A stretch of 64,000 nucleotides of DNA from positions 496,001 through 560,000 of the forward strand of contig NZ_CP065047.1 in NCBI RefSeq assembly GCF_015689175.1. The letters are read 5' to 3'. Below the pieces are notes generated by a model, which saw nothing but the letters and a program-made list of their open reading frames with translations, was not told the DNA's origin and did not search any database. This DNA is from Mycobacterium kubicae. GTDB lineage: Bacteria; Actinomycetota; Actinomycetes; Mycobacteriales; Mycobacteriaceae. This document shows, piece after piece, positions 7,168 through 59,501 of this stretch; position 1 is the stretch's first letter, and each line of letters starts with the position of its first letter. A program made the position numbers and the translations under genes.

Positions 7168-7182
7168 ACCCCAAGTTGGGGT
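7168..7182. promoter_or_regulatory. C-rich/G-rich palindrome between ricR and the MFS gene
   Basis: ACCCCAAGTTGGGGT is a perfect inverted repeat with 7-bp arms, 18 bp after the ricR stop and about 84 bp before the MFS gene. Its ACCCC/GGGGT arms resemble the RicR operators, but the centre is different and the outer AT steps are missing. It could be a weak copper operator or the stem of a terminator without a T tract. I cannot decide between these. Confidence 0.4.
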
Positions 7183-7265
7183 AAAGCAGTCCATGCCGTG
7201 CGTACCGTAAGAGCGGCGTAATTGCGTCAGGGCGACCGCGCCTGGGCAATTGCGCGTCCCAAGTT

Positions 7266-8510: not shown

Positions 8511-8617
8511 ACCCGCAGCTCAACAACGGTTTCCCGGGCTTTTGCGGGCTGCGATGAGGTCTGCGGCTTCCCCGCTATGCCACACTGGTCACCGACTCGC
8601 GACTGGAGGGATGCAAT

Positions 8618-37884: not shown

Positions 37885-39048
37885 TCAGATTCCGCCGCGG
37901 GCCACCAGTTGGCCGGCGATCACGTTGCGCTGAATCTCGTTGGTGCCCTCGCCGACGATCATCAGCGGCGCATCGCGGAAGTAGCGTTCCACGTCGTATT
38001 CGGTTGAGTAGCCGTAGCCGCCGTGGATGCGCACCGCGTTCAAGGCGATCTCCATCGCGGCTTCGGAGGCGAACAGCTTGGCCATGCCGGCCTCCATGTC
38101 GCAGCGCTCGCCGCTGTCGTAGCGCTCGGCGGCATAGCGGGTGAGTTGGCGGGCGGCGGTGAGTTTGGTTGCCATGTCGGCCAGATAGTTGCCGACGGAT
38201 TGGTGCTTCCAGATGGGATTGCCGAAGCTCTCGCGCTGCTGGGCGTAGGCCAGCGCGTCTTCGAGTGCCGCCGTGGCCACCCCCAGGGCGCGCGCGGCGA
38301 CCTGAATCCGGCCGGTCTCAAGGCCTTTCATCATCTGCGCGAAGCCGTGGCCGGGTTCCCCGCCCAGGATGGCCGTGGCCGGGAGCCGGAAGCCGTCGAA
38401 CGACAGCTCGCAGGATTCCACCCCCTTGTAGCCCAGCTTGGGCAGGTCCCGCGACACCGTCAGGCCGGGCCCGGGTTCGACCAGCACGATGGAGATGCCG
38501 TGGTGGCGCGGCGTGGCGGTGGGATCGGTCTTGGCCAGCAGCGCGATCAACCCGGACCGGCGCGCATTGGAGATCCAGGTCTTGGCGCCGTTGATCACCA
38601 GGTCGGTGCCGTCGGGCAGCGCGGTGGTCGACATGTTCTGCAGATCCGAACCCCCACCCGGCTCGGTCAGTGCCATGGTGGCCCGCAACTCGCCAGTGGC
38701 CAGCCGCGGCAGATAGGTCTGCTGCTGCTCGTCGGTGCCGAACAGCGTCAGCAGCTTGGCGACCACGGTGTGCCCGCCCATCGCGCCGGCCAGGCTCATC
38801 CAGCCGCGCGCCAGTTCCTCGGTGACCCGTACATAGCACGGCATGGATACCGGTGCACCGCCGAAGGATTCGGGTACCGCCAGCCCGTAGATGCCGATGC
38901 GCTTCATCTGGTCGATCCACGCCTCGGGATAGGTGTTGGCATGCTCGACTTCTCGGACCGTCGGCTTCACCTCACGGTCGATGAACGCGCGCACGGTGGC
39001 GACCAGCATCTGTTCGTCGTCGTTCAGCTCACTGCTCACCCGTGCCAT
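37885..39048 (-). CDS. fadE3: Acyl-CoA dehydrogenase FadE3
   Basis: A 387-residue flavin-dependent acyl-CoA dehydrogenase that introduces the alpha-beta double bond in fatty acyl-CoA. FAD and substrate motifs are present: MALTEPGGGSDLQNMSTTA, KTWISNARRSG and RIHGGYGYSTEYDVERYFRD. The catalytic glutamate is in GEGTNEIQRNVIAGQL. ATG 39048 begins MARVSSELNDDEQML. It is divergent from the Rv0216-type dehydratase gene with 43 bp between starts, so they share a promoter region. This supports a joint role in beta-oxidation or a related pathway. Confidence 0.94.
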   Translation of the reverse strand: MARVSSELNDDEQMLVATVRAFIDREVKPTVREVEHANTYPEAWIDQMKRIGIYGLAVPESFGGAPVSMPCYVRVTEELARGWMSLAGAMGGHTVVAKLLTLFGTDEQQQTYLPRLATGELRATMALTEPGGGSDLQNMSTTALPDGTDLVINGAKTWISNARRSGLIALLAKTDPTATPRHHGISIVLVEPGPGLTVSRDLPKLGYKGVESCELSFDGFRLPATAILGGEPGHGFAQMMKGLETGRIQVAARALGVATAALEDALAYAQQRESFGNPIWKHQSVGNYLADMATKLTAARQLTRYAAERYDSGERCDMEAGMAKLFASEAAMEIALNAVRIHGGYGYSTEYDVERYFRDAPLMIVGEGTNEIQRNVIAGQLVARGGI

Positions 39049-39091
39049 ATTGGGCGTTGTGACTTCCCACAGTCGGACCGGGTATGCGGCG

Positions 39092-40084
39092 ATGCGCGAG
39101 GGCGGCCCCTACTTCGACGACCTGGTGGTGGGGCAGGTGTTCGACTGGGCGCCGGCGATGACGTTGTCGTCGGGTCTGGCCGCCGCGCATCAGGCGATCC
39201 TGGGCGACCGGCTGCGGCTGGCGCTGGACGGCGGTTTGTGCGCCGCGGTGACCGGCGCCCCGGCGGCGCTGGCGCATCCGGGTCTGGTGTGCGACGTGGC
39301 GATCGGGCAGTCGACGGTGGTCACCCAGCGGGTCAAAGCCAACTTGTTCTATCGCGGGCTGCGATTTCACCGCTTCCCGGTGATCGAGGACTCCCTCTAC
39401 ACCCGCACCGAAGTGGTCGGGCTGCGCGCCAACGCGGCCAAGCCGGGCCGGGCCCCGACGGGCCTGGCGGCGCTGCGAATGACCACGGTTGACCAGGCCG
39501 ACCGCCTGGTGCTCGACTTCTACCGGTGCGCCATGCTGCCCGCCGGCCCGCAGTGGGATCCACAGGATGCGCCCAGCGACGACCTGTCGGGCATCGGCGT
39601 CGACGCGCCGCCGCCGCCCACCGACCCGGCCGCCGGCTGGGACGGTGCGGTGTTCCGCGCCCGGGTGCCCGGTCCGCATTTCGAGCCGGGTCTGGCCGGT
39701 GCGGTGCTGCGCAGCACCGCCGACGTGGTCAGCAGCGCCCCCGAGCTGGCCCGTCTCACCCTGAATATCGCTGCCACCCATCATGACTGGCGGGTGGGCG
39801 GCCATCGTCTGGTCTACGGCGGGCACACCATCGGCCTGGCGTTGGCGCAGGTGACCCGGCTGCTGCCCAACCTGGCGACGGTCCTGGGCTGGGCCCACTG
39901 CGACCACACCGGACCGGTCCGCGAGGGGGACACGCTGTACAGCGAGGTGCGGGTCGAGTCCGCCGAACCCACCACCAGCGGGGGAGTGCTGGGGCTGCGG
40001 TCGCTGGTCTACGCCGTCGGCGGCTCGGCCGGCGAGCCGGACCGGCAGGTGCTGGACTGGCGCTTTTCGGCGCTGCAGTTCTAG
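39092..40084 (+). CDS. Double-hotdog MaoC-like dehydratase (Rv0216 homologue)
   Basis: A 330-residue protein with two hotdog domains in tandem (about 5-160 and 185-325), as in Rv0216, whose crystal structure shows a double-hotdog fold related to R-specific enoyl hydratases. The first domain starts GPYFDDLVVGQVFDW; the second contains GGHTIGLALAQVTRLLPNLA. The likely reaction is reversible hydration of an enoyl-CoA, but published work on Rv0216 left its substrate open. ATG 39092 begins MREGGPYFDD. It diverges from fadE3 and its stop is 23 bp from that of the giant PE_PGRS gene. Confidence 0.87.
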   Translation: MREGGPYFDDLVVGQVFDWAPAMTLSSGLAAAHQAILGDRLRLALDGGLCAAVTGAPAALAHPGLVCDVAIGQSTVVTQRVKANLFYRGLRFHRFPVIEDSLYTRTEVVGLRANAAKPGRAPTGLAALRMTTVDQADRLVLDFYRCAMLPAGPQWDPQDAPSDDLSGIGVDAPPPPTDPAAGWDGAVFRARVPGPHFEPGLAGAVLRSTADVVSSAPELARLTLNIAATHHDWRVGGHRLVYGGHTIGLALAQVTRLLPNLATVLGWAHCDHTGPVREGDTLYSEVRVESAEPTTSGGVLGLRSLVYAVGGSAGEPDRQVLDWRFSALQF

Positions 40085-40107: not shown

Positions 40108-43100
40108 TCAGCCGTTGCTGCCGGGGGTACCGGACGGGCCCTGCTGGCCGGCCACTCCGGCGCCGACCGCACTCCCGCCGGCACCGCCGTCGCCCTGGCT
40201 GCCGCCGGTGCCGCCGGCCCCGGTGGTGCCGGTACCGCCCGCGCTGCCGCCGGTGCCCGCCGCGCCCGGTGTGCCTGCCGGGCCGCCGGCGCCGCCGTTG
40301 CCGCCGCTGGGTCCGGTGCCGCCGGTGCCGCCGTTGCCGTCGGGCGCGCCGCCGTTGCCGCCTGCCCCGCCGGTCTGCCCGGTGGTGGCGCTGCCGCCGT
40401 TGCCGCCGGCCCCGCCGTTGCCGGCCTTGCCGCCATTACCGGAGGTGGCCCCGCCGCTGCCGCCGTTGCCGCCGGCGCCGCCGACTCCGCCGTTGCCGCC
40501 GGTGCCGCTGTTACCGCCGACGCCGCCGTTCGGGTTGGCGCCCGCGCCGTCGGCGCCCTTGCCACCGGTGCCCGGTGCCCCGCCGGAGCCTGCGGCCCCG
40601 CCGTTGCCGCCCGCACCGCCGGTGCCGGCACCTTGGGCATTGCCGCCGGCGCCCGCGGCGCCACCGGCGCCGCCGACTCCGCCGTTGCCACCCGCGCCGC
40701 CGGCGCCGTTGTTGACGGTGATGTCTCCGGCCGCGCCGGTGCCGCCGGCCCCGCCTGTTGCGCCCTGGCCGCCGTTGCCGCCGACGCCTCCGTTGCCGGA
40801 GATCGAGCCGCCCAGGCCGCCCGCGCCGCCGGTGCCGCCGGCGCCGCCGGCCTGACCGACGCCGCCGTTGTCGCCGGGGTTGACGCCCCCGCTGCCGGCC
40901 GTCCCCGCGGCGCCGTTGCCGCCGACGCCACCGTTGCCGCCGTTACCGACGTTGCCGCCGTTGCCGCCGGCTCCGCCGTTGCCGCCGGTGGCGCCGGGGG
41001 TAGTGGCGTTGAAGCCGGCGCCGCCGGTGCCGCCGTTGCCGGCCGGTCCGGTCACCGCCACGCCGTTGCTGCCGCCCGCGCCGGTGGTCGACCCGGTGCC
41101 GCCGGTGCCACCGGTGCCCGCGGTGCCGGCGTTGCCGCCGTTTCCGCCCACACCGCCGTTGGGGTTGGCCGCGGTGCCGTTGGCGCCGCCGCCGCCGCTG
41201 CCGGGGGTACCGGCGTTACCGCCGTTGCCGGCCTTGCCGCCCGCGCCTGCGGTGCCGTTGGATCCGGCGCCCAGCGCGGTGCCACCGACGCCACCGTTAC
41301 CGCCGTTGCCGCCGGCCCCGCCGTTGCCGCCGTTGCCGCCGGCCTGGCCGGCGCCGTTGTTCGTCCCGGCCACCCCGGTAGCGCCGGTCACGCCGGTGCC
41401 GCCGGCGCCGCCGTTGGCCCCGGTACCGCCGGCCCCGCCGGCACCGCCGTTGCCGGAGGTCGATCCCCCGGCGCCGCCGTTGCCGCCGCTACCGCCGGAC
41501 CCGCCGGCCTGGCCGTTGCCGCCGCTGGCGCCGGCCGTGGCCGGGTTGGTGCCGGCCGTGCCGGCGACCCCGTTGCCGCCGGCGCCGCCCTTGCCGCCGT
41601 TGCCGATGTTGCCGCCGTTGCCGCCGTTGCCACCGGTGCCGCCGTTGGCGCCCGCGGCGGAGGAGGTGAAGCCCGTGCCGCCGTTGCCGCCGTTACCGGC
41701 CGGGCCGACGATCGAGGCGCCGTTGCTGCCGTTGGCCCCTGCGGTCGATCCGGTGCCACCGGTGCCGCCGTTGCCCGCGGCGCCCGCGTTGCCGCCGTTG
41801 CCGCCTGCCCCGCCGTTGACGTTGCTGGCGGTGCCGTTGGCGCCGGTGCCGCCGTTGCCCGGTGCGCCCGCATTGCCACCGCCGCCGGCGTTGCCCCCGG
41901 CGCCGGTGGTGCCGGCGACGCCGCTGGTGACCGTGCCGCCCGCCCCGCCGTTGCCGCCGTTGCCGCCGGCGCCGCCGTTACCGCCGTTGCCGCCGGCCTG
42001 GCCCGCTCCGCTGTTGGTCCCGGCTACACCGTTGGCGCCGGTCACGCCGGCCCCGCCGTCGCCGCCCCGGGCGCCGGTGCCACCGGCGCCGCCGCTGCCG
42101 CCGTTGCCGGACACCGAGCCGCCGTTGCCGCCCAGACCGCCGTTGCCGCCCGCACCGCCGGCCATTCCGTCGGTGCCGCTGGCGCCCGCGGTGGCGCCGT
42201 TGGTGCCCGCCGTGCCGGCAAAGCCGTTGCCGCCGGCCCCGCCGTTACCGCCGTTGCCGTGGCTGCCGGCGTTGCCGCCGTTGCCGCCGCTGCCGCCCGC
42301 GGCGCCCGCGGTGCTGGTCTGGGTGTAGCCGGTGCCGCCGTTGCCGCCGTTGCCGACGGCCCCCGCGGCGAGGGCGCCGTTGGTGCCGGCGGTGCCCGCC
42401 TTGGTGGTGGAGGTGCCGCCGGTGCCGCCGGTGCCTGCGGTCTCGTTGCCGCCGGTGCCGCCGTTGCCGCCGTTGGGGTTGGTGGCGGTGCCGGCTGCGC
42501 CGTTGCCGCCGTCGCCCGGGGTTCCGGCCTTGCCGCCGTTGCCGCCGTTTCCGCCGACGCCGTCGACACCGTTGCTGCCGACGCCCTGCGTCTTGCCGCC
42601 GACTCCGCCGTTGCCGCCGTTTCCGCCGTTGCCGCCCACGCCGCCGTTGCCGCCGTTTTGGCCGGAGCCGATTCCGGTGCCGTACTGGTCGACGTCTGAG
42701 ACGCCGTTGCCGCCGGTCACGCCGTTGCCGCCGGCGCTGCCGGCCGCGCCGTTGCCGCCGGCGCCGCCGGTGCCGCCGTTGCCGGAGACGGAGCCGCCCA
42801 TACCGCCGGCACCGCCGTTGCCGCCGGACCCGCCGGCGCGGCCGTCGACGCCGGAGTCGCCCGCCTTGGTGCCGTTGGCACCGGCCAGGTTGTCGACGCC
42901 GTTACCACCGGCGCCGCCGTTACCGCCGTTACCGATGGAACCGCCGTTGCCGCCGTTGCCGCCGTTGCCGCCGCTGGCGCCCTTGGTCAGCGGGTTGTAG
43001 CCGGCGCCGCCCTGACCGCCGTTGCCGGCCGGTCCGGTGACCGACGCGCCGTTGACGCCCGCGGTGCCGGGTGTGGACCCGGTGCCCGCCGTACCGCCGG

Positions 43101-46100
43101 TGCCGGCGATGCCGGCGTTGCCGCCGTTGCCGCCGTTGCCGCCGTTGGGGTTGGTCACGGTGCCGGCCGCGCCGGTGCCGCCGTTGCCGGGTGTGCCCGC
43201 TTTGCCACCGTTGGCGCCGTTGCCGCCGGTGCCGGTGGTGCCCGCGGCGCCGCTGCCGTTTTGCAGCGCACCCGCCGCCCCGCCGTTGCCACCGGAGCCG
43301 CCGTTACCGCCGTTGCCGCCGTTGCCACCGTTGCCGGCCGCGCCGTTGTTGACTCCGGGCAGACCGGCCTTGCCACTCACTCCGTTGCCGCCCTTGCCAC
43401 CGGCGGCGCCGTTTCCGCCGGCCCCGCCGTTGCCGGCATTGCCGGAGATGTTGCCGCTGGCCCCGCCGGCGCCGCCGTTACCGCCGGAGCCACCGGATGT
43501 GCCGCTGGTGCCGCTGCTGCCGGCGGTGGTCCCGTTGACGCCGGCCGTGCCGGCCGTGCCGTTGCCGCCGGCCCCGCCGTTGCCGCCATTGCCGATCGAA
43601 CCGGCGTTGCCGCCGTTGCCGCCGTTGCCGCCGGAGGTGCCCGGGGTGGTGGGGTTGAAGCCGGCGCCGCCGTTACCGCCGTTACCGGCCGTGACGGTGG
43701 GGATGGTGCCGGCTTTGCCGCTCGCACCGAGGGTGGAGCCGTTGCCGCCCGCACCGGCGCCGCCGCCGCTGCCCAGGACGCCGCCGTTGCCGCCGTTGCC
43801 GCCGTTCGGGTTGGCGGCCGTGCCGGCCCCGCCGTTGCCGCCGTTGCCGCCGACACCGTTGCTGCCGCCGTTGCCGCCGGCACCGCCGACGCCCGCCTTG
43901 TAGCCGGCCGCGCTGGGCGCTCCGCCGTCACCGCCCTTGCCGCCGCCGCCGCCGTTGCCGCCGCCGCCGCCGTTGCCGCCGCCGCCACCGTTGACGCCGT
44001 CGGCCCCGCTACCACCGGTGCCGCCGGAGCCGCCGTTTCCTGCGGCACCGCCGGCGCCGCCGTCCCCGCCGAGCGTGCCGCCCTTACCGCCGGTACCGCC
44101 GTTGCCGCCGGTGCTGCCGCTGCCGCCGATGCTGCCGTTGGCGCCCGGCGTGCTGCCGCCGGCGCCGGTCTGGCCGATCGCGCCGGTGCCGCCCTTGCCG
44201 CCGGTGCCGCCGGTGCCGTACTGCCCGGCGTTGCCGCCAGTACCGCCGTTGCCGCCGTTGACGCCGGGCGTGGTGGAGTTCCAGCCGGCCCCACCGGTGC
44301 CGCCGTTTCCGGCGATGGTGGTGGGAGTGGCGCCGGACTTGCCGTTGCTGCCGGTGGACGAGCCGCTGCCACCCAGACCGGCGTTACCGCCGCTGCCCGG
44401 GTTGGCACCGTTACCGCCGGTGCCACCGTTGGGGTGGGCGGCGGTGCCCGCGGCACCGGTGCCACCGACCCCGCTCACTCCGCCGTCACCGCCGTTGCCG
44501 CCGGCCCCGCCGGTGCCGACGGTGCCCTTGGTGACCGTCCCGGCGCTACCGCCCGCGGCGCCGGCGCCGCCGGTGCCGCCGTTACCGGCGTTGCCACCCG
44601 TGCCACCGTTGACGCTCCAGTCGCCGGTACCGCCCGCGCCGCCGGTGCCACCCGCGCCGCCGTTGCCGCCGGCGCCGCCGTTACCGCTGTTCCCGGCGAT
44701 GGTGCCGCCGTTGCCGCCCTTACCGGCCGCGCCGCCGGCGCCGCCGGTGCCGCCGACACCGCCGTTTTGGCCCGGTCCGCCGGTCGAACCGGTCACGCCG
44801 GTGCCGCCGGTGAAGCCGTTGCCGCCGTTGCCGCCGTTGCCGTAGGCCCCGGCGTTGCCGCCGTCGCCACCGGCGTAGCCGGTCTGGCCGGCGCCGGGCA
44901 GGCCGAACGCGTTGCCACCGTTGCCGCCGTTGCCGGTCGCGGTGGTCGGGGTGGTGCCGGCGCTGCCGTTGCCGCCGAAGCCGCCCGGCCCGACACCGCC
45001 GGTGCCGCCGCCGCCGCCCGTGCCGGGATTGCTGCCGCTGCCGCCCTTACCGCCGCCGAGGTAGCCGTTGCCGCCGGTGCCGCCGGCCGCGCCCAGGCCG
45101 CCGTTGCCGCCGTTGCCGCCCTTGCCGCCGGTGCCGCTGAAGGTGTTGGCGCCGTCGCCACCGCTGCCGCCGGCCGCGCCGTTGCCGGCGTTACCGCCGG
45201 CGCCGCCCTTGCCGTTCAGGGTGCCGCTGTTACCGCCGTTGCCGCCCGCGCCGCCGCTGCCGCCGGCCTGGCCGGTGCCACCGTTGGGGTTCAGGGCGGT
45301 CCCGTTGCTGCCGTTCTGGCCGGCCGCGCCGCTGCCGCCGTTACCGCCGGCGCCGCCGTCGCCGTACAGGCCGCCGTCACCGCCGACACCGCCCTTGCCG
45401 CCGTTGGCGCCCGGCACGGTGGCGTTGAAGCCATCACCGCCCTGGCCGCCGTTGCCGCCGACGCCGGTGGGCGTGGTGCCGCCGGTGCCGTTGGCACCCT
45501 TGGCGCCGGCGCCCGACCCGCTGCCGTTGGCGCCGCCGCTGCCGCCGGTGCCGCCGCCCGCGCCGGTGCCGGGGTTGCCGCCCTTGCCGCCGGCGCCGCC
45601 GTCGGGGTTGGCGATGGTGCCGGCCGCGCCGTTGCCACCGTTGCCCTGGGTGCCGCCGTTGCCGCCGTTGCCGGCGTTGCCGCCGGCCGCACCGGTGCCC
45701 GCCGCGCCGTTGGTGGCGTTGCCGCCGGCGCCGCCGGCGCCGCCGTTGCCGCCGGTCCCGCCGCTACCGCCGCTGCCGCCGTTCTGGCCGCCGCCGATGC
45801 CGGTGCCGTAGGCGTTGGAGTTGGCGACACCGTTGTTGCCGTTCACGCCGCTGCCGCCGTTGCCGCCGCTGCCCGCGTTACCGCCGAGCCCGCCCGCGCC
45901 GCCGTTGCCGACGGTGGTGCCGCCGGCGCCACCGGCGCCGCCTTGACCGCCGGCCCCGCCGTTACCGCCGGTGCTGCCCGAAGAGCCGGTGTTGACGCCG
46001 TTGCTGCCGGTCGCACCGTTGGAGCCGTTGCCGCCGGCGCCGCCGGCGCCGCCGTTGCCGTTGGTGCCGCCGCTGCCGCCCTTACCGCCCGCGCCGCCGG

Positions 46101-49100
46101 CCAGGCCGTTGCCGCTGGCGTCGGTGGCGTTGGGTGCCTGGCTGAAGCCGACGCCGCCGTTGCCGCCGTGACCGGCCGAGCCGGTGAAGCCGGCGCCCGC
46201 GGTGCCGTTGCTGCCGCTGACGTCTCCGCCGCCGTCCAGGCCGCCGATACCGCCGGCGCCGCCGCTGCCCGCGTTGCCGCCATTGCCGCCGTTGCCGCCC
46301 GCGGTGCTGGTCGCGATGCCGGCCGCGCCGTTGCCGCCGCTGCCCGGTGTCCCGGCCGCACCGCCGTTGCCGGCGTTGCCGCCCGCGCCCACGGTGCCCG
46401 CGGTGCCGTACAGGCCGGCGCTACCGCCGGTGCCGCCTTGCCCGCCGTTGCCGCCGACCCCGCCGTTGCCGCCGTTGCCACCGTTCTGGCCGGCGCCGAC
46501 GCCGGTGCCGTAGTTGTCGACGCCGGATACGCCGTTGCCGCCGTTGTGCCCGGTGCCGCCCTTGCCGCCGTCGGCGCCGGATCCGCCGGCACCGCCGGCG
46601 CCGCCGTCACCCAGGTTGGCCCCGGCGTCCCCGCCGGCGCCGCCCTTACCGCCGGCGCCGCCGGCCTGACCGGTGCCGCCGTTGTTGCCGTCGCTGACTC
46701 CGTCGACGCCCGCTGCGCCCGCCACGCCGTTGCCGCCGTTGCCGCCGGCGCCGCCGCTGCCGTAGTTGCCGCCGTTGCCGCCGGCGCCGCCGTCGCCGCC
46801 GTTGGCGCCGGCCGCAGTTGAGGTGAATCCGGTGCCACCGTTGCCGCCGTTGCCGACGGGCGTGGTGGGCATGGCTCCGTCGAGGCCGTACTTGCCGGTG
46901 CCCGAGCCGCTGCCGTTGCTGCCGCCGGTACCCCCGGCGCCCGCGGTGCCCGCGTTGCCGCCGTTGCCGCCGGCCCCGCCGGTCGGGTTAATGGCCGTGC
47001 CGGCCGCGCCGTTGCCGCCGCTGCCCGGCGTGCCGGCGTTGCCGCCGTTGCCGGCGTTGCCGCCCAGACCCGAGGTGCCCGCGACGCCCTTGGTCGAGCC
47101 GCCGCCGACTCCGCCGTTGCCGCCGCTGCCGCCGTTGGCTCCGTTGCCGCCGTTGCCGCCGGCCTGTCCGGCGCCGTTGTTGACGCCGGCGACGCCGGTC
47201 GCGCCGTCCTGACCGGTGCCGCCGGTGCCGCCGTTGCCGCCGCTGCCGCCGTTACCGCCGGCGCCGCCGTTGCCGGCGTTCACGCCGCCCTTGCCGCCGC
47301 GGCCGCCGTCACCGCCGGACCCGCCGGCTTGCGCGTTGCCGCCGCTGTCGCCGGCCTTGACGCCGGCGGTGCCGTCCGTGCCGGCCACGCCGTTGCCACC
47401 GTTACCGCCCGAGCCGCCGTTACCGACGTTGCCCCCGTCACCGCCCGCGCCGCCGCTGCCGCCGTTGGCGCCCGGTGTGCTGTAGGTGTAGCCGTTGCCG
47501 CCGTTACCGCCGTTGCCGCCCGAGGTGGCGGTGCTGCCCTTCGCTCCGGCGCTGGGGGTGCCGGTGCCGGTGCCGACCTTGCCGGCCGCGCCGGCGCTGC
47601 CCGCGTTGCCGCCGGTGCCGCCGGCCCCGCCGTTGGGGTTGGCCGCGGTGCCGTCTGCGCCGATGCCGCCGTTGCCCCCGGCCGCGCCGTTGCCGCCGTT
47701 GCCGGCGCTGCCCGCCTTGCCGATGGTCGATCCGGTGCCGCCGTTGCCGCCCGTGCCGCCGGCGCCGCCGGCGCCGCCGTTACCGGCCGCGCCGCCCGCG
47801 CCGTTGTTGATGCCGGCCACGCCGGCCGCGCCGTTGCCGCCGATCGCGCCGTTGCCACCGCTGCCGGCATTGCCTGCGGCGCCCCCGGCGCCGCTGGCCG
47901 CCTGGGTACCGCTGCCGCCGGCCGTCTTCCCGCCGACGCCGCCGTTGCCGCCGCTACCGCCGTTGCCGCCCGCACCGCCGGACCCGCCGGACTGACCGGC
48001 GGCGTTGTTGGTGCCGACCACGCCGTTGGAGCCGGCCACACCGGCACCGCCGTTACCGCCGTCGGCGCCGGTCCCACCGGCGCCACCGACTCCGGCCGCG
48101 CCGGACACCGAGCCGCCGTTACCACCCTGGCCGCCGCTACCACCGGCGCCACCGGCCTGCCCCGCGCTGCCGCTCTCGCCGGGGTTGACGCCATTGCCGC
48201 CCGCGTTGCCGGCCACACCGTTACCGCCGGCACCACCGGTGCCGCCGGTGCCGACATTGCCGCCGTTGCCGCCGTTACCGCCGGTGCCGCCACTGGCGCC
48301 GGCGACCGTCGAGGTGAAGCCCGCCCCGCCGTTACCGCCGTTACCGCCCGAGCTGGGGGCGGTGCCGTTGGAGCCGGCGCTGGGCGTGCCCGAACCGGTG
48401 CCGACCGCGCCGCGGACCCCTGCGGTGCCCCGGTTGCCGCCGTTGCCGCCGTTGCCGCCGTTGGGGTTGGCCGCCGTGCCGTCGGCGCCGATGCCGCCGT
48501 TGCCGCCAGCGGCGCTGTTGCCGCCGTTGCCGGCGCTGCCCGCCTTGCCGATCGTGGACCCGGCGCCGCCGTTACCACCGTTGCCGCCGGTGCCGCCGTT
48601 ACCGCCGGCCGCGCCGGCGCCGCCGGTTCCGCTGTTGGTGCCCGCCACGCCGCTGGCGCCGGCACCACCGGCGCCAGCGTTGCCGCCGGCGCCACCGTTG
48701 CCGGCGTTGCCGCCAGCACCGCTGGCCGCCTGGAGACCGGTGCCACCCAGCGTCTTGCCGCCGGCCCCGCCCGCGCCGCCGGAGCCGCCGGCCCCGCCGT
48801 TGCCGCCGCTGCCGCCGGCCTGACCGGCGCCGTTGTTGACCCCGCTGGTGCCGACCGCGCCGCTGACACCGGCGCCGCCCTTGCCGCCGTCGGCTCCGGC
48901 GCCGCCGGCGCCGCCCACCCCGGCCGCGCCGGAGGTCGAGCCGCCGTTGCCGCCCTGGCCGCCGATGCCGCCGGACCCGCCGGCTTGACCGGCCCCGCCA
49001 CTGTCACCGGCGTTGACGCCGTTGCTGCCGACCGTGCCGGCCACTCCGTTGCCGCCGGCGCCACCGGCGCCGCCGTTGCCGACCGAGCCGCCGTTACCGC

Positions 49101-52100
49101 CCGCGCCGCCGTTGCCGCCGCTGGCGCCGGCCACGGTCGAGGTGAAGCCGGTGCCGCCGGTGCCGCCGTTGCCGGCCGCGCCGAGGACCGAGGCGCCGTT
49201 GCTGCCGGCGGCGGCGCTGCCGCTGCCGCTGCCGTTGGCCCCGCCGGATCCGCCGCTACCCGCGGAGCCGGCGTTACCGCCGTTGCCGCCATTGCCGCCG
49301 GTGGTGTTGGTGGTCGTGCCGGCCGCGCCGTCACCGCCGCTGCCGGGCGTGCCGGCGTTGCCGCCGTTGCCGCCGACGCCGCCGACGCCGTTGCTGCCCG
49401 CGGTCGCGCCGGTACCGGCCGTCCCGCCTTTACCGCCGGCGCCGCCGGCGCCACCGGTGCCGCCGTTACCGCCGTTGCCGCCGGCTTGCCCGCCGCCGAT
49501 GCCGGTGCCGTATTTGTTGAGGTCCGCGGTGCCGTTGGCGCCGGTAATGCCGGTGCCACCGGAGCCGGCCGCGCCGCCGCTGCCGCCGTTGCTGGCGTTG
49601 CCGCCGTTGCCGTTGGCGCCCGCGGTCGCGCCGGACCCGCCGGCCTGGCCGCCGGTGCCGCCGTTGCCGCCGCTGCCGCCCTTACCGCCGGCCCCGCCGT
49701 TGCCGCCGTCGTATCCGGCGCCGTTGTTGACGCCCGAGATGCCGTTGGCACCCGCCGCGCCGGCCCCGCCGTTGCCCGCCGCGCCTGCGTTACCGCCCTT
49801 GCCGGCCGCCCCGCCGTTGCCCGCGGTGCCCGCGGTCGCGCCGTTGGTGCCCGCGCCCGCCGCGCCGCCCTGGCCGCCGTCGCCACCGGCGCCGCCGCTG
49901 CCCGCGTTACCGCCGGCCTGACCTGCTCCGCCGGCTCCGGTGGTGGCGACGCCGTTGGCGCCGTTGATCCCTGAGCCACCCGTGCCGCCGGCGCCGCCGA
50001 TACCGCCGGCCCCGCCGTTGCCGCCCTTGAAGCCGGTGCCCGCGCCGGTACCGCCGGCCCCACCGGCGCCGCCCTTACCGCCCGCCGCGCCGTTGGTGCC
50101 GCTGTCGCCGGCGTTGACGCCGTTGATGCCGTTGGTGCCGGCCGCGCCGTTGCCGCCGGCCCCGCCGTTGCCGCCGTTGGCGCCGGTGCCGTCGGCGCCG
50201 CTGAGCGCGGTGCCGCCACCGGTGTTGGCGCCGCCCGCGCCGCCCTTGCCGATGCCGCCGGCGTTGCCGCCGGCCCCACCCGCGCCGCCGTCGACGAAGG
50301 TGCTGGTGCCATCGGCACCCCGACCACCGTCGCCCGCGACACCGGCGTTGCCGCCCTTGCCGCCGACGCCGCCGCTGCCGTCAGTGCCCGCGGTGGCGCC
50401 GGTGCCGCCCTTACCGGCAGCGCCACCGGCGCCACCGGTGCCGCCGGCACCACCGTTGCCACCGGCCTGCCCGGCGCCGCTGTTGACACCCGCGACGCCG
50501 CTGGCGCCGTTGCTGCCCGCGCCGCCGGAGCCGGCCGCGCCGCCGCTGCCGCCACTGCTGGCGTTGCCGCCGTTGCCGTTGGCGCCCGTGCTCGCGCCGA
50601 CCCCGCCGGCCTGGCCGCCGGTGCCGCCATTGCCGCCGTTGCCGCCCTTACCGCCGGCCCCGCCGTTGCCGCCGTCGTATCCGGCGCCGTTGTTGACACT
50701 CGAGATGCCGTTGGCGCCCGTAGCGCCGGCCCCGCCGTTGCCGGCGTTGCCCGCGTTGCCGCCCTTGCCGGCGGCCCCGCCGTTGCCCGCGGTGCCCGCG
50801 GTCGCACCGTTGGTGCCCGCGCCCGCCGCGCCGCCCTGGCCGCCGTTACCGCCGGCGCCGCCGTTGCCGGCGTTGCCGCCGTTACCGCCTGCGGTGCCCG
50901 CGCCGTTGGTGGCTGTGCCCGCGACGCCGTTGAGGCCCGAGCCGCCGGTGCCGCCGCCGCCACCGATACCACCGGCGCCGCCGCTACCACCCTTGAAGCC
51001 GGTGCCCGTGCCGGAACCGCCGGCCCCGCCGGCGCCGCCCTTACCGCCGGCCAGTCCGTCGGTGCCGCTGTCGCCGGCGTTGACGCCGTTGACGCCGTTC
51101 GCGCCGGCCGCGCCGTTACCGCCCGCGCCGCCGTTGCCGCCGCTGGCGCCGGTCCCGTTGGCGCCGCTTTGCGCGGTGCCGCCGCCGCCGTTGGTGCCGC
51201 CGGCCCCGCCCTGGCCGATGCTGCCGGCGTTGCCGCCCGCCCCACCCGCGCCGCCGTCGACGAAGGTGGCAGTGCCGTCAGCGCCGCGGCCGCCGCCGCC
51301 GGCGAAGCCGGCGTTGCCGCCTTTGCCGCCGACGCCGCCGCTGCCGTCCGTGCCCGCGATGACACCGGTGCCACCCTTGCCGCCGGCGCCACCGGTTCCG
51401 CCGGTGCCGCCGGCGCCGCCGTCACCACCGGCCTGACCAGCGCCGCTGTTGACACCCGCGACGCCGCTGGCCCCGGTGCTGCCGGTGCCGCCGGACCCTG
51501 CCGCGCCGCCGGCGCCGCCGTTGCTGGCGTTGCCGCCGTTGCCGTTGGTGCCCGCGGTTGCGCCGACGCCGCCGGCCTGGCCGCCGGTGCCGCCATTGCC
51601 GCCGCTGCCCCCGGCGCCGCCGTTACCGCCGTTGCCGCCGGCGTACCCGGCGCCGTTGTTCACCCCAGCGGTGCCGTTGGCGCCCAGAGCGCCGGCGCCC
51701 CCGGCGCCGGCCACACCCGCCGCGCCGCCGTTACCGGCCGCGCCGCCGTTGCCGGCGTTACCCGCGGTGGCGCCCGGGCTGGTGACCGCGCCAGCCGCGC
51801 CGCCCTTGCCGCCGTCGCCGCCCGCGCCGCCGTTGCCGGCATTGCCGCCGTTGCCGCCGGCCTGGCCCGCGCCGTTGGTGGCTTGCCCGTTGGCGCCGTT
51901 CACCCCGGAACCGCCGGTGCCGCCCGCGCCGCCGATGCCGCCGGCGCCGCCGTTGCCGCTGTGGGTTCCGGCGCCGCCGCTGGCTCCGCCGGCACCGCCG
52001 GCGCCGCCCTTGCCGCCGGCGGTGCCGTTAGTACCGCTGTCGCCGGGGTTAACGCCGTTGCCACCGTTGCCGCCGGCCGCCCCGTTGCCGCCGGCACCGC

Positions 52101-55100
52101 CGTTGCCGCCGTTGCCCACATTGCCGCCGGCCCCGCCGGCGCCGCCGTCGCCGCCGTTGGCGCCGGGTGTGGTGGCGGTGAAGCCGGTGCCGCCGTGACC
52201 GCCGTTGCCGGCGAACCCGGCGACCGCCGCGCCGTCGGCGCCGTTGTTCGCGGTGCCGCCGCCGCCGTTGGCGCCGCCGGCGCCGCCCTTGCCGATGCTG
52301 CCGGCGTTGCCGCCGGCCCCGCCGGCGCCGCCGGCGGTGTTGGTGACCGTCCCAGCCGCGCCGTCACCGCCGCTGCCCGGGGTGCCGGCGTTACCGCCGG
52401 CTCCGCCTACGCCGCCGCTGCCGTTACCGCCCTGCACGCCGGTGGTGCCGCCGCCCAGGCCACCGGTGCCGCCGGCGCCGCCAGCCCCGCCAGTGCCGCC
52501 GTTGCCGCCGTCGCCGCCGGACTGGCCGCCGCCGATGCCGGTGCCGTACTTGTTGACGTCGGCGGTGCCGTTGGCGCCGGTGATGCCGTTGCCGCCGGAT
52601 CCGGCCGCTCCGCCGACCCCGCCGTTGCTGGCGTTGCCGCCGTTGCCGTCGGCGCCGGCCTGTGCCCCGGAACCGCCGGTGCCGCCCGCGCCGCCGTTGC
52701 CGCCGTGGCCGCCCGCGCCGCCGTTGCCGCCGTGGCCGCCCGCGCCGCCGGCACCGCCGGCGTAGCCCGCGCCGTTGTTGACTCCTGCCGTGCCGTTGGC
52801 CCCGGCCGCGCCGACACCGCCGTTGCCCGCGGTGCCCGCGGCTCCACCGTTGCCGGCGGCTCCGCCGTTGCCGGCCACCGCACCCGCACCGCCGGCCGCG
52901 CCGCCATTACCACCCGCGCCACCGGCGCCGCCGTTACCGGCGTTGCCGCCGGCCTGGCCCGCCCCGCCGACACCGTTGGTGGCCACCCCATTGGCGCCGT
53001 CCACACCACTGCCACCCTGGCCGCCGGCCCCGCCGGCGCCGCCGGCACCGCCGTTGCCGCTGTGGGTGCCCAGGGTGCCGCTGCCCGCACCACCCTTACC
53101 GCCGTCACCACCGGCCCCGCCGGCCTGCCCGTCGGTCCCGCTGGCGCCGGGATTGACCCCGTTGGTGCCGGACTTTCCGGCCACGCCGTTACCACCGGCG
53201 CCACCGTCACCACCGCTACCGACGTTGCCGCCCGCGCCACCATCGCCACCATGACCACCGCTGGCACCCGGAGTCGTCGCGCTGTAGCCGCTGCCGCCCG
53301 CGCCGCCGTTACCGGCCGCCGCCACGATCGCCCCGTCATCACCGGCAGCACCCGAACCGATACCACTGCCGTTGGCGCCACCGCTGCCGCCGGTACCCGA
53401 GACACCGGCATTACCACCGGCACCACCCCGACCACCGTCGAGGAACGTCGCAGTGCCATCCGCGCCATGGCCACCGTCACCCGGGCGGCCCGCGTTGCCG
53501 CCGTTACCGCCGGCGCCGCCCAGGCCGTCGTTGCCCGCCGCGCCCGTGGTGCCGCCGCCGAGGCCACGGTGCCCGCCGGCGCCGCCGGTCCCGCCGCCGC
53601 CGCCATTGCCGCCGTTACCGCCGGCCTGCCCCGCGCCGGAGTTGACCCCGGCGGTGCCGTTGACGCCGGACACACCGGTCCCGCCAGATCCCGCGTTACC
53701 GCCGATGCCGCCGTTGCTGGCGTTGCCGCCTGTGCCGTCGGTGCCCGCGTTCGCCCCGGTACCGCCGGATACGCCGCCGGTACCGCCCTTACCGCCGTTG
53801 CCGCCGGCCCCGCCGGCGCCGCCGTTCCCGCCGTCGTATCCGGCGTTGTTGTTGACACCCGCGGTGCCGTTGGCGCCATTGGCGCCGGTCCCGCCGTTGC
53901 CCGCGGTGCCCGCGGCCCCGCCGTTGCCGGCCGCTCCGCCGTCGCCCGCGTGGCCGGCGATGCCGCCCGTGCCGGCCGCGCCCGCGGCGCCGCCCTTACC
54001 GCCGTCGCCGCCGGCGCCGCCACTGCCGGCGTTTCCACCGGCCTGGCCCGCGCCGCCGACACCGCTGGTGGCGGCGCCGTTCGCGCCGGAGACGCCCGAA
54101 CCACCGACCCCACCACTGCCGCCGGTGCCGCCGGTGCCGCCGTCACCGCCGTGGGTGCCGGCGCCGCCGCTCTTACCACCCGCGCCGCCGTCGCCGCCCT
54201 TACCGCCGGCCAAACCGCTGGTGCCGCTGTCGCCCGCGTTGACGCCGTTGGTGCCGTTGGTGCCGGCCGCGCCGTTGCCGCCGGCGCCACCGTTGCCGCC
54301 GTTACCGACATTGCCGCCGGCCCCGCCGGCCCCACCATTGCCGCCGTTGCCGCCCGCCGTGGTGGCACTGAAACCGGTGCCGCCAGCGCCGCCGTTGCCC
54401 GCCGGGGCGGCTACCGTCGCACCGCCTGCGCCCTTGGCGCCCGTCCCGCTCCCGCTGCCGTTGGCGCCGCCGGAGCCGCCGGTACCCGCCGCGCCCGCGT
54501 TACCGCCGTCGCCGCCCTTACCGCCGTCGAGGTAGGTGGCGTTGCCGTCGGAGCCGTGCCCACCATCACCGGGGCGCCCCGCAGCGCCGCCGTCACCGCC
54601 GGACCCACCGGTGCCCGATGTGCCCGCGGTGCCGTGGGCCGCCGTGCCGCCGACCCCGCCCGCGCCGCCGGTGCCGCCGGTGCCGCCGTTGCCGCCGCTG
54701 CCGCCGGACTGACCCGCGCCGTTGTTGACGCCGGCGACACCGTTGTTGCCGGTGACACCGGCGCCGCCCGCGCCACCGCTGCCGCCGCTGCCGCCGATAC
54801 CGCCGGCGCCGCCGTTACCGGCCATCGAGCCGCCGGTCCCTCCGGCGCCGCCCCGACCGCCGGACCCACCGGCCAGGCCGTTGCCGCCGCTGTCGCCGGG
54901 GTTGATGCCGTTGGCGCCGGCCACTCCGGCCGCGCCGTTGCCGCCGGCCCCGCCGTTACCGCCATTGCCGTAGTTTCCGCCGCGCCCGCCGGCCCCGCCG
55001 TCACCGCCGTTGGCGCCGGCCGTGGTGGCGCTGTACCCCGCGCCGCCGTTACCGCCGTTACCGCCCGCATTCGTCGGTGTGGTGCCCGACGCACCGTGCA

Positions 55101-56910
55101 CGCCGATGGTGGAACCGGTGCCGCCGACGCCGCCGGCCCCGCCGGCCCCGTTGTTGCCGCCATTACCGCCGTTGCCGCCGTTGGGGCTGTTGGCCGCACC
55201 CGCGGCGCCGTCACCGCCGTTGCCACCGATTCCGCCGCCACCACCGGCCCCGCCGGCGCGCCCGGCGCCCGTGGTACCGGTGTGGCCGAACAGCCCGCCG
55301 CGACCACCGGCACCGCCATTGCCGCCGTTACCGCCGGCGCCGCCGGCGCCGCCATCGGTGCCGTCACCGCCGTTGCCGCTGGGGAAGGTCCCCATGGCGC
55401 CGTCGACGCCATGACCGCCGGTGCCACCGGCCCCGCCCAGCCCGCCGTTGCCGCCGTTGCCGCCGTTGCTGAACAGCAGCCCGCCTCTACCGCCGACGCC
55501 GCCGGAACCGCCGTGACCGCCGGCGCCGCCGGTGCCGCCGTTGACGGCCGCCAGACCCGCCGCGCCGTTGCCGCCGTTACCGCCGGCGCCACCGTTGCCG
55601 TACAGCCAGCCGCCCCTACCGCCCGCACCGCCGTCGCCGCCGTTGCTGCCCGGGCCACCGCTGCTGCCGCCGGTGCCGCCCCCGCCGCCGGCGCCCAACA
55701 ACAGGCCGGCGCGGCCGCCGGATCCACCGGTACCGCCGGTAGCTGCGCCGCTGCCGCCGGCGCCGCCGGCGCCACCGGCGCCGTACAGTCCGCCGGATCC
55801 GCCGGCGCCGCCTAGGCCGCCGTCACCGGTGTGGCCGATGCCGCCGGCGCCACCGGCGCCACCCGCACCGCCAGAAAGCCAGCCGGCGTTGCCGCCGCCA
55901 CCGCCGCTGCCGCCGATGCCGCCGGCACCGCCCGCGCCGCCGGCGCCACCGGCACCGGTCAGGAGGCCGCCGTGGCCGCCGTATCCGCCGTGTCCGCCGA
56001 ATGCCGGGCCGCTCCCACCCGCTCCGCCGGCGCCGCCGGAGCCCAGCAGCCAGGAGTTACCGCCGCCGCCACCGGCGCCACCGGTCCCGGTAGCGCTGAG
56101 GTTGGCGCCGCCGGCGCCGCCGGCCGCGCCGTTGCCGTAGAGCAGGCCGCCGTTGCCGCCGTTGCCGCCGGCCGCCCCGGCTCCGCCGTACGCGCCGGCG
56201 CCGCCGGCACCTCCGGCACCGCCGTTGCCCAGCAGCCACGCGTGGCCGCCGGTACCACCGGCTCCACCGGCACCGAGCAGTCCGGCGCTGGCGCCGCCGA
56301 CACCGCCCGTGCCGCCATTGCCCCACAGCCATCCGCCGTTGCCGCCGGCGCCGCCGGCGCCGCCGTTGCCGTTGAGGGACATGCCGCCCGCGCCGCCGAC
56401 GCCGCCGTTACCGATCAACCCGGCGCTGCCCCCGGCGCCGCCGGCCTGCCCGGCGGCACCCGATGCGCCCGCGCCGCCGTTACCGATCAACAACCCGCCG
56501 TTGCCGCCGGCCTGGCCCGGGGCGGTGCCGTTGGCGCCGTCGCCGATCAGCGGGCGCCCAAGCAGCAACTGGGTGGGTGTGTTCACCGCGTCGAGCACGG
56601 CTTTTTCGAAGGCCTGCAATGGTGAGGTGTTGGCGGCCTCGGCCCAGGCGTAGGAGTTGCCCCCGGCGTTGAGGGCCTGCATGAACTGGGTGTGGAAGGC
56701 CGCGGCTTGCGCGCTGATGGTCTGGTACGCCTGGGCGTGGCTGCCGAAGAGCGCCGCGATGGCGGTCGACACCTCGTCTTCGGCGGCGGCCAGCAGGGTG
56801 GTGGTCGGGCCCGCCGCGGCCGCGTTGGCCGCTTCGATCGCCGAACCGATTCCGGCGACGTCGGATGCCGCTGCCAGCAGCGCCTCGGGGGAGGCGAACA
56901 GGAATGACAT
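40108..56910 (-). CDS. Giant PE_PGRS family protein (about 5600 residues)
   Basis: One uninterrupted frame of 16.8 kb. Residues 1-95 are a typical PE domain ([20 protein letters not shown], then [16 protein letters not shown]). A linker ends in [11 protein letters not shown], the conserved motif before PGRS regions. The rest is Gly-Gly-X repeats rich in Ala, Asn, Thr and Ser, recurring as [14 protein letters not shown] and [14 protein letters not shown] words. PE_PGRS proteins are exported by ESX-5 and lie on the outer surface. ATG 56910 is chosen: AGGTGG lies 5 bp before it, and a GTG 9 bp upstream is the alternative. M. tuberculosis members I recall are below about 2000 residues. Function is unknown. 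The gene is read after its smaller PE_PGRS neighbour. Confidence 0.93.
49681..53900 (-). repeat. Higher-order tandem modules in the PGRS region (966-1119 bp)
   Basis: A landmark on the plus strand (CCGTTGTTGAC, encoding VNNG) recurs with matching flanks at 49721, 50687, 51653, 52772 and about 53846. The spacings are 966, 966, 1119 and 1074 bp, all multiples of three (322, 322, 373 and 358 codons). The 40 bp before the first two landmarks (from 49681 and 50647) are identical, and the following 200 bp are very similar. Each module runs through the same word order, including a NGNGGNAS block and a block ending GAAG or AAGA. This points to tandem duplication by unequal recombination, with the 966-bp pair being the most recent. 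Confidence 0.85.
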
Positions 56911-56939
56911 CTGGACCACCTATCTCGCTAGGCCACGAT
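56911..56939 (-). promoter_or_regulatory. Conserved leader in front of the giant PE_PGRS gene
   Basis: The 29 bp before ATG 56910 match 26 of 29 bases in front of the second PE_PGRS gene (59473-59501). They contain AGGTGG, the likely ribosome site, then GTCCAG before ATG. The shared leader indicates gene duplication including the translation signal. The gap to the upstream PE_PGRS stop is only 66 bp. Confidence 0.7.
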
Positions 56940-56976: not shown

Positions 56977-59472
56977 TTAGCCGGTTGGGCCGGGCGCACC
57001 GGGCTGGCCGAAGAGCCAGCCGGCGCGGCCGCCGCCACCGCCGTGTCCGTCGGGCCCGGTGGGTGTCCCGTCACCACCGGCGCCTCCGGCGCCACCGTTT
57101 CCGCCATTACCGAGCAAGGTGGCGTTGCCGCCCGGACCGCCGCCACCGCCGGCGCCACCGGCGCCGAGGTTGAGGTTGGTGCCCCCGGCACCACCGGCGC
57201 CGCCGGCACCGGCGTTGCCGTAGATGAACCCGCTGTTGCCGGCCGCGCCGCCCTGACCGCCCGCGGCCCCGAGGCCGTTGGCGTGGCCGCCGCTGCCTGC
57301 GGCACCACCCGCTCCGCCGGCCCCACCGTCGCCGAGCAGCGTCGCGGACGCACCCAGCCCGCCATTGCCGCCGGCACCGCCCGCGGCGTTGAGCGTGCCG
57401 GTGCCGCCGGCCCCGCCCGCGCCGCCGGCCTCGCTGTTGCCGGCCAACCAGCCGCTGGCACCGGCGTTGCCGCCTTGGCCGCCGGCCCCGGCCGCCGTAC
57501 CTGCTCCCGCGGCTCCGCCGACCCCACCGGCTCCGCCGGCCCCGCCGATACCCAGCAGCCGGGCGTCGCCGCCGCTGCCGCCGACACCGCCGTGACCGCC
57601 GGATGCCCCGGCGATGCCGACGCCGCCGCTGCCGCCGGCTCCGCCGTCACCGCCGAGGCCGAGCAGCCATCCGCTGCCGCCACCGAGGCCGCCGTTGCCG
57701 CCCGCACCGGTGCCGACGCCGGTCACCAGCCCGGTGCCGCCCGCGCCGCCGCCACCACCGACACCCAGCAGCACACCGGCGCTGCCACCGTTGCCGCCGT
57801 TGAATCCGTTGCCGCCGGCGATGGTGGCGACGCCGTTGCTGCCGAAACCGCCATGACCGCCGTTGCCGAACAGCCAGGCGCGGCCGCCGTCGCCGCCGGC
57901 CGTCGGGTTGCCGAAGCCGCCGTTGCCGCCGTCGCCGCCGCTACCGAACAACAGGCCGCCGTTGGCGCCCGCGCGGCCGGTGCCGCCGTCGCCGCCGTTG
58001 CCGATCAGCAGTCCGGCACGGCCGGCGGTGCCGCCGACCAGGCCGTTGCCGCCGTCGCCGCCGTGCCCGAAGAGCACCGCGTTGCCGCCCAAACCGCCGT
58101 TGCCCTCGCCGGATATCCCGGAACCGCCGACGCCGCCGTCTCCGCCGCTACCGAGCAGCCAGCCGCCGTTGCCGCCGTTTGCGCCGTTGCCGCCCGCACC
58201 CGCGACGGCGTTGAGGCCGCTGCCGCCGCTGCCGCCCCTGCCGCCGTTGCCCAGCAGTCCGGCGTTGCCGGCCGCGCCGCCGTTGCCGCCGGAGCCGCCC
58301 AGGAAGCTCGAGGCGCCGCCGTTGCCGCCGGAGCCGCCGCTGCCGATCAGGAATCCAGCTGCGGCCCCCGCCCCGCCGACGCCGCCGTCGCCGGTGGCGC
58401 TGCTGCCGCCGGCACCGCCGTCACCGCCGAAGCCCGCCAGCCAGGCGTTGCCGCCCGCACCTCCGGCGCCGCCGGTCCCGGTGCCGCCGAAGTTGGCCCC
58501 GCCGGCGCCGCCGGCGCCACCGCTGCCGATCAGGAGCCCGCCGCTGGCACCGGCCCCGCCGGCGCCGCCATCGGCGCTGACGCTGCTGCCGCCGGCGCCG
58601 CCGATTCCGCCGTGGCCCAGCAGCCAGGTGCTGCCGCCGGCGCCGCCCGCGCCGCCGGTTCCGACGCCACCGAGATTGGCCCCGCCGGCCCCGCCGGCAC
58701 CACCGTGGCCCCACAGGAATCCGGCGCTGCCGCCGGCCGCTCCGGTGCCGCCTTCGGCGCTGACGCTGGTTCCACCGGCTCCGCCGGCGCCGCCGCTGCC
58801 CAGCAGCCACGCGTTCCCGCCGGCCCCACCGACGCCGCCGGCTCCGATGCCGCCCGCGCTGGCGCCGCCGGCCCCGCCGGTCCCGCCGTTACCGAAAAGC
58901 AAACCGCCCATGCCGCCGGCGCCACCGGCCCCGCCGGCACCGTTCATCGAAATGCCGCCGGCCCCGCCCGCGCCGCCGTTGCCGATCAGACCGGCGCTGC
59001 CGCCGGTTCCTCCGGCTTGGCCCGGTGCGCCGATGCCGCCCCGGCCGCCGTTGCCGTACAGGAAGCCGCCCGCACCGCCGTTGCCCCCGGTGCCGTCGAT
59101 GCCGTTGGCGCCGTTGCCGATCAACGGACGGCCGAACAACGTCTCGGTGGGGGTGTTGATCAGGTTGAGCAGCTGTTGCAGGGGGGAGGCGTTGGCGGCT
59201 TCGGCCAAGGCGTAGGAGTTGGCGCCCGCTGCCAGGGCCTGCGTGAACTGCGTGTGGAATGCAGCGGCTTGGGCGCTGACGACCTGGTAGGCCTGCGCGT
59301 GCGCACCGAAGAGGGCCGCGAGTGCGGTGGAGATCTCGTCTTCGGCGGCGGCCAGCAGGGCGGTGGTCGGTGCGGCCGCGGCCGCGTTGGCCGATTCGAT
59401 CGCCGAGCCGATGCCCGCGACGTCTGCAGCCGCCGCTAACAGTGTCTCGGGGGACGCCAACAGGTATGACAT
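56977..59472 (-). CDS. PE_PGRS family protein (831 residues)
   Basis: An 831-residue PE_PGRS protein. Residues 1-95 form the PE domain ([20 protein letters not shown], then [16 protein letters not shown]), followed by [14 protein letters not shown] and a Gly-Gly-X region with longer irregular blocks such as [14 protein letters not shown] and [12 protein letters not shown]. It ends [14 protein letters not shown]. The Trp/Leu-containing blocks recur about every 35-45 residues and differ from the Asn/Thr-rich repeats of the giant neighbour. ATG 59472 has AGGTGG at 5-bp spacing. It is first in the tandem pair, and transcription probably continues into the giant gene. Surface exposure through ESX-5 is inferred from the family. 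Confidence 0.93.
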
Positions 59473-59501
59473 CTGGACCACCTACCTACCTAGGCCACGA
59501 T
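59473..59501 (-). promoter_or_regulatory. Conserved leader in front of the 831-residue PE_PGRS gene
   Basis: This stretch matches the leader of the giant gene (56911-56939) in 26 of 29 positions, including AGGTGGTCCAG directly before ATG. It contains a triple GGTA-type repeat (TAGGTAGGTAGG) not kept in the downstream copy. Confidence 0.7.

Follow-up and report, generated by a model that had tools for sequence, protein, structure and literature searches.

Is a PE_PGRS frame of 5,600 codons a preserved gene, or a repeat that stays open by chance or has lately run away? The question is raised by a 64,000-nucleotide stretch of Mycobacterium kubicae DNA (NCBI RefSeq assembly GCF_015689175.1, contig NZ_CP065047.1, positions 496,001 to 560,000 of the forward strand), hereafter the window, in which an earlier note had recognised a single intact giant PE_PGRS gene of about 5600 codons at 40108..56910. 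Those coordinates are correct and the frame is unbroken, with zero internal stops across 5,600 codons; the gene lies on the minus strand, a point missing from that note. The coding sequence comprises 5,600 amino acids (aa) and a TGA stop (TGA at 40108-40110, ATG at 56910). The mechanically called open reading frame runs over 40108..56919 from a GTG at 56919 (5,603 aa), and this GTG is an in-frame alternative start; the ATG at 56910 is the likelier one, since orthologs begin MS[FY] there. The product would be about 440 kDa, with 47% Gly and an isoelectric point of 5.4; it has few Lys and Arg (68 + 19 among the 5,600 residues). Judged from its sequence and its relatives, the giant looks like an old, preserved gene, not a recent runaway repeat. 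We give a probability of roughly 0.6 to the full reading, namely that it belongs to an old group of PE_PGRS genes whose frame is under purifying selection, whose C-terminal units are kept in order, whose length changes fall mostly in a middle zone, and whose product would be exported as a sail with a stalk.

Selection on the reading frame

Over the giant's stretch the other five frames contain 24, 127, 6, 33, and 81 stops, and the antisense frame with six has an open run of 1,947 codons. Openness by itself is weak evidence for a gene, because GGN-type DNA yields few stops in any frame. The frame was compared with that of Mycobacterium sp. 1423905.2 (G010), the nearest carrier found, which is a separate draft assembly of 370 contigs. 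Its giant comes in two pieces, on contigs that both break off within the gene and match partly overlapping stretches of it; these pieces, of 2,663 and 3,060 residues, are open and colinear with the N and C parts of the window giant. Over the C-terminal stretch, which begins at codon 2,535 of the window gene, the two genes agree in 2,780 of 3,060 residues, and these 9,180 bp hold a single insertion or deletion (indel), of 18 bp (6 aa). The ratio of nonsynonymous to synonymous substitution (omega) over these 3,060 residues is 0.18 at a synonymous divergence (dS) of 0.31, with 173/168/686 substitutions at codon positions 1/2/3. Neighbouring genes compared with G010 in the same way give 0.20 (an Rv0216-like gene), 0.06 (an acyl-CoA dehydrogenase gene), and 0.19 (a second, partner PE_PGRS). 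Read in the two wrong sense-strand frames, the giant yields omega values of 2.5 and 3.2, with 18 and 103 codon pairs excluded for stops. The stops per frame, the codon-position pattern, and the wrong-frame omega together rule out chance openness, and purifying selection on the PGRS reading frame is supported by this comparison.

A collapsed or chimeric assembly at the locus is unlikely, because the G010 pieces come from a separate assembly and are colinear, and because similarly long intact frames exist elsewhere. Two further PE_PGRS pairs from the window genome and G010 could be used as a yardstick for the gap count: frames of 1,289 and 1,301 aa with 3 gaps, and the partner PE_PGRS, with a single gap over 833 residues. 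A third pair (1,700 and 1,742 aa, 50 gaps) is truncated at a contig end and its orthology is doubtful, and the other PE frames fetched were omitted as Gly-poor or lacking a counterpart. The giant ranks longest among the 46 PE-bearing frames of the window genome, with a runner-up of 2,405 aa and 15% Gly. The largest PE_PGRS of M. tuberculosis has about 1,900 aa, a figure with which the threefold excess claimed in the earlier note is in keeping.

Orthologs, ordered units, and length change

The survey covered 396 genomes of the genus, sampled evenly from a larger group. The giant's first 169 residues find a match in 23 of the 396 at E 1e-60, some of these at other sites. The Rv0216-like protein, encoded on one flank, matches in at least 354 and the amidohydrolase, on the other, in 130 (E 1e-170). 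In a hand tally of these 130, 96 have both flanks on one contig among the matches listed. The gap between the flanks is at most 2 kb in 87 of these and 18.5-24.3 kb in six (the window genome, G006, G203, G211, G228, and G381); it is 29,397 bp in two (G165 and G230) and 4.3 kb in one (G060). For the rest of the 130, the flanks lie on different contigs in 14, and the place of the Rv0216-like match was not listed for 20. G045 carries the insert though it falls outside the 130, its amidohydrolase spanning two frames.

Intact single-frame giants are present at this site in six genomes, with lengths counted from the ATG of 5,600 residues in the window, 5,970 in M. gordonae DSM 44160 (G120), 5,956 in G211, 4,699 in G381, 6,578 in M. 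gordonae CTRI 14-8773, and 5,951 in M. asiaticum 1245139.5. The comparison with relatives that the earlier note had called for thus finds intact giants of 4,699-6,578 aa at the same site in five other genomes, and giant size is not peculiar to the window strain. Among the PE frames listed, the giant is the largest in both G211 (5,975 vs 1,897 aa) and G381 (4,717 vs 2,239 aa). The giants of G010, G047, G007, G113 (C part only), and M. intermedium are cut by contig ends, and the copies in G236, G108, and G216 were left out of the intact and broken classes. The giants examined share the site, the partner PE_PGRS, and the conserved N-terminal part by which the orthologous group was defined. In the literature, no giant PE_PGRS was recognisable from titles and the beginnings of abstracts. 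M. asiaticum 1165133.8 (G236) has, beside its Rv0216-like gene, a 3,560-aa PGRS frame with a different PE domain (55% identical); its giant-type N-terminus belongs to a 1,239-aa frame that has a stop, on a contig of 4.7 kb. This is either a rearranged gene or a misassembly.

The C-terminal part of the window gene, residues 3131-5600 (40111..47520, minus strand), was delimited by cross-species comparison as a region of units in kept order. A position matrix made from the window gene and its relatives describes a 71-aa module that has an aromatic residue close to its beginning and finishes with a GDSG-like sequence; this matrix found 0 matches in 120 triplet-shuffled proteins. The module is not exclusive to giants, as it occurs in 5 of 73 other Gly-rich frames, including the giant-type N-terminus of M. 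asiaticum 1165133.8. Counted from the C-terminus, the last nine modules of the window gene lie at 311, 530, 748, 973, 1193, 1401, 1783, 2249, and 2470 residues. Their positions recur within 16 residues in G120, G211, and M. asiaticum 1245139.5 and within 7 residues in G113, which has one extra module; G010 likewise keeps the spacing. Eight C-terminal units of 205 aa were compared among five genes, in ten pairs. Units at the same position are 0.74-0.77 identical in distant pairs and 0.84 and 0.93 in near pairs, against means of 0.57-0.61 for units at other positions (0.57-0.59 in distant pairs), and in each of the ten pairs 6 to 8 of the 8 units have their best match at the same position. Because same-position units match best across species, the unit order predates the species split and the units have stayed distinct since, homogenisation being ruled out by the same-position identities.

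Most of the large length differences between orthologs fall in a middle zone, residues 837-3130 (47521..54402, minus strand), as located by ortholog alignments and internal copies. The two M. gordonae giants are 89.4% identical and have gaps of at least 25 residues only at +327, +330, and -59, the last near the C-terminal end. G211 and M. asiaticum 1245139.5 are 84.9% identical with 12 gaps, none of at least 25 residues; the G381 giant differs from the other orthologs throughout its length. In these alignments, length changes lie mostly in the middle zone, and the clearest case involves whole units of ~327 aa. No scored 450-bp window in the six intact giants has a forward copy of at least 95% identity within 4 kb downstream, and BLASTN self-comparison gave only whole-length, low-identity matches. 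The closest internal copy in the window gene, at a lag of 966 nt, is 88.8% identical; the highest value of all, 92%, comes from M. gordonae CTRI at a lag of 981 nt. Unit duplication has therefore occurred, but not lately in the window gene.

Domains and a proposed architecture

By the sequence features tested, the giant is a PE_PGRS, with a PE domain, a YxxxE motif, a GRPLI linker, and Gly-rich repeats. The PE domain occupies residues 4-94 (56629..56901, minus strand; Pfam PF00934, 119.5 bits), and its sequence relatives with solved structures are PE8 and PE25. Y87xxxE91 (56638..56652, minus strand) is a motif of the YxxxD/E export type described in PMC7550000, and the GRPLIG linker follows at residues 118-123 (56542..56559, minus strand). 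Y87, E91, and G118-G123 are invariant in 10 of 10 alignment rows. The PGRS model PF21526 scores 34.6 bits (cut-off 27) in residues 122-190 only, and the remainder beyond the linker was characterised by composition, at ~48% Gly. The LipY model (NF052352) reaches 105.9 bits, in the PE part only, against a curated cut-off of 450, and this identity was rejected. The last 460 residues have no Pfam match up to E = 1, and no adhesive tip domain was recognised there. In the last ~20 residues (window 40111-40200), the GG periodicity gives way to short collagen-like G-X-Y triplets; ortholog ends are likewise G-X-Y, with Pro in several, and the end of the partner PE_PGRS is similar by eye.

As general export equipment, the window genome has six EccC loci above cut-off and three PF20729 frames, a family for which one control genome also exceeds the cut-off. 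PF00934 exceeds its cut-off in the E. coli control genome as well, which is unexpected for a mycobacterial family. The larger PE frames fetched from the window genome are mostly Gly-poor (8-23% Gly), including that of 2,405 aa, and regions with large non-Gly-rich PE frames lie at C1:2581978-2595179 and C1:430678-442053; large PE-unique proteins seem to outnumber PGRS ones in this genome.

Residues L, I, F, W, Y, and M make up 10.8-12.5% of residues 119-600 and 2.9-3.6% of the sequence beyond in all six intact orthologs, which also have Trp at 194, 225, 344, and 434 (+/- one residue) in common. The partner PE_PGRS, for comparison, has a hydrophobic share of 10-14% along its whole length. With the hydrophobic residues concentrated in 119-600, the ~430 residues that follow GRPLIG have the look of an entire PGRS sail of the ordinary kind; we place this hydrophobic-rich part at residues 119-545 (55276..56556, minus strand), its end at 545 being set by eye. 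In the AlphaFold-based model of the sail, two layers of polyglycine-II helices are stacked and a hydrophobic foot sits in the mycomembrane (PMC9436101, PMC10216338). PGRS33 is described as having 27 helices (PMC10216338), and according to PMC7550000 ESX-5 exports PE_PGRS proteins and PecA trims them. By analogy, the PE domain and YxxxE signal of the giant would route it through a type VII system, and the ~430 residues after GRPLIG would fold as a polyglycine-II sail whose hydrophobic foot may hold the protein on the mycomembrane. Beyond this sail, some 5,050 residues poor in hydrophobic side chains could extend the polyglycine-II fold as an exported stalk, by a very rough estimate 65-100 nm long. 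This length is arithmetic, from 280 register breaks or ~13 residues per helix in two layers at 0.48 nm per helix, a background value used together with the length of PGRS33. Such a stalk may space or decorate the cell surface, and the order of its segments would be important enough to be kept.

A bolder form of this proposal makes the giant a dedicated 65-100-nm surface fibre of environmental mycobacteria, with a PE_PGRS33-like sail, a hydrophilic polyglycine-II stalk of ~5,000 residues, a frozen distal part of distinct segments, and a length-tuning zone that changes by whole ~327-aa units; taken as a whole, we think this improbable. If true, the fibre would add a new structural class to the cell-surface appendages of mycobacteria.

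Genomic site, rival histories, and known systems

On one side of the giant lies the convergent Rv0216-like gene (38933..40084, plus strand), whose orthologs served to define the site, and the giant's stop falls just past the end of this gene. Upstream of the giant follow the partner PE_PGRS, an 834-aa frame (56977..59481, minus strand) that ends 66 bp upstream of the giant's ATG and is present here in relatives, then the amidohydrolase (60962..62275, plus strand; PF07969) on the opposite flank of the insert, and a lipW-like gene. Pfam assigns the neighbours to PEPCK, AMP-binding, enoyl-CoA hydratase, acyl-CoA dehydrogenase, amidohydrolase, and alpha/beta hydrolase families; the labels Rv0216-like, fadE3, and lipW are ones we take to apply from the gene order beside PEPCK. 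The partner has 833-952 aa where complete (the window genome, G010, G228, G381, G203, G006, G047, G007, M. intermedium, G045, M. asiaticum 1245139.5, and G211). Elsewhere it runs off contig ends in some carriers or is a 607-aa frame (G108); in G120 and M. gordonae CTRI the giant and its partner are on different contigs, though presumably adjacent. In G230 (C1:5683475-5712872) and G165 (C88), the intergenic site of the giant is occupied by the 29,397-bp insert. Ten frames of the G230 insert were scanned and seven matched: a PPE-SVP protein, a sugar transferase, a glycosyltransferase, a polysaccharide-synthesis protein, a polysaccharide deacetylase, and two methyltransferases. The site between the Rv0216-like and amidohydrolase genes looks insertion-prone.

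The earlier note had held that an intact frame of this length implies selection or very recent growth, and the first half of that alternative is the one borne out, by the omega of 0.18 and the codon-position pattern. That an ordinary PE_PGRS expanded in tandem very recently, in a single strain, would fit a repetitive gene with internal copies of 88.8% and 92% at lags of ~966-981 nt, but it is contradicted by the absence of scored copies of 95% identity or more in six genes, by C-terminal units that are orthologous and ordered between species, by the single indel against G010 at dS 0.31, and by giants of similar size in other species; we consider it highly improbable. A stronger rival, though still an unlikely one, is that function resides solely in the PE domain, linker, and first ~430 PGRS residues, the remainder being repeat bulk that is tolerated so long as it stays in frame and soluble. 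Recognised domains are indeed confined to the N-terminal part, and PGRS33 variants with large indels are reported to stay functional (PMC10216338). Four other assemblies also have broken frames at the site: G228 has at least one break, and G203, G006, and G045 have more. Set against the intact M. gordonae CTRI gene, the G006 copy shows 14 indels, and the lengths of 9 are not divisible by three; either assembly error or genuine decay may lie behind this. The earlier note had expected a product of this size to strain ESX-5 export; the similar open frames of several species suggest that the size is tolerated, but the four broken ones stand beside them.

The broken frames count against our reading of an old group of PE_PGRS genes under selection, and so do several other observations. 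The N-terminal half matches G010 more loosely, at omega 0.29 and with 21 gaps and 2,022 identities among 2,488 aligned residues, although the terminal gap of this alignment may be an artefact, because both contigs end within the gene and overlap. M. intermedium is without one ~220-aa step of the C-terminal spacing, M. gordonae CTRI is without one module and ~50 residues short beyond it, and G381 departs from the spacing. The hydrophobic drop is shared by other long PGRS proteins, some with a later partial rise, and of the stalk pieces run against PF21526 one stays under the cut-off of 27 with 14.6 bits and two have no match. Tolerated bulk, for its part, sits poorly with a C-terminal part that is more constrained against G010 than the N-terminal half (omega 0.18 vs 0.29; 1 vs 21 gaps) and with the retained unit order. 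A last point against our own reading is the tree of the two flank proteins (42 chosen genomes: 18 carriers or likely carriers and 24 non-carriers), which rejects the carriers as one clade (approximately unbiased test, p 7e-6) and so makes the distribution patchy. The giant's history could be one of old presence with losses, or one of old transfer. We tentatively entertain the possibility that the lineage leading to the window genome and G010 acquired the gene by old horizontal transfer into an insertion-prone site, and not that the lineages in between lost it. The flank tree puts these two genomes in a starred group with seven non-carriers. Unlike it, the trees of the giant's N-terminal part (14 rows) and of the partner (11 rows) each contain a supported branch (96/96 and 100/99, respectively) that has the window genome, G010, and M. 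intermedium together on the same side. The site also takes the other insert in G230 and G165, with PPE and polysaccharide genes in G230. However, the window genome and G010 are not nested within the gordonae-asiaticum group. The giant is 72.5% identical to that of M. gordonae overall (73% over the N-terminal 560 residues), and the flank proteins are ~69-82% identical to those of carriers other than G010. Because these identities are of similar order, a transfer would have to be old.

The name PGRS denotes a "polymorphic" repeat, and on selection in pe/ppe genes the sources consulted are divided in what they present, near-neutral evolution being argued in one (PMC3319526) and purifying selection on pe_pgrs genes in a review (PMC7550000). 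Here the repeat units of a very long PGRS can be traced singly between species, with an omega of 0.18 that is near the 0.20 of a neighbouring gene. This opens testable questions about the purpose of PGRS length and about the route of so long a polypeptide through a type VII system. M. gordonae is a common environmental species, and since it is among the carriers, the giant's function need not concern virulence.

Among known systems, the giant resembles the giant bacterial adhesins with immunoglobulin-like or RTX-type stalks in how it might work, as an anchor with a repetitive stalk that varies by units; it differs from them in its PE-type export signal, its Gly-rich repeats, and the lack of a recognised adhesive tip domain. 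With the PE_PGRS33 type of M. tuberculosis it shares the PE domain, a YxxxD/E-type motif, GRPLI, GGX repeats, and a hydrophobic-rich PGRS after the linker, and it departs from that type in its ~5,050 extra hydrophobic-poor residues. The pe_pgrs33 gene is described as combining low dN/dS with large indels in 30% of strains (PMC10216338), whereas between two species the giant shows a single small indel over 3,060 residues. M. marinum PE_PGRS1, which by its description is inserted at a conserved chromosomal place and has an exceptionally long Gly-rich domain (PMC11939664), is similar in both respects, but its site, between the ucpA and echA20 orthologs, is a different one. As far as the sequences tell, the giant is an unusual variant of the PE_PGRS type, set apart by its length, its ordered super-units, and the stability of its C-terminal part across species.

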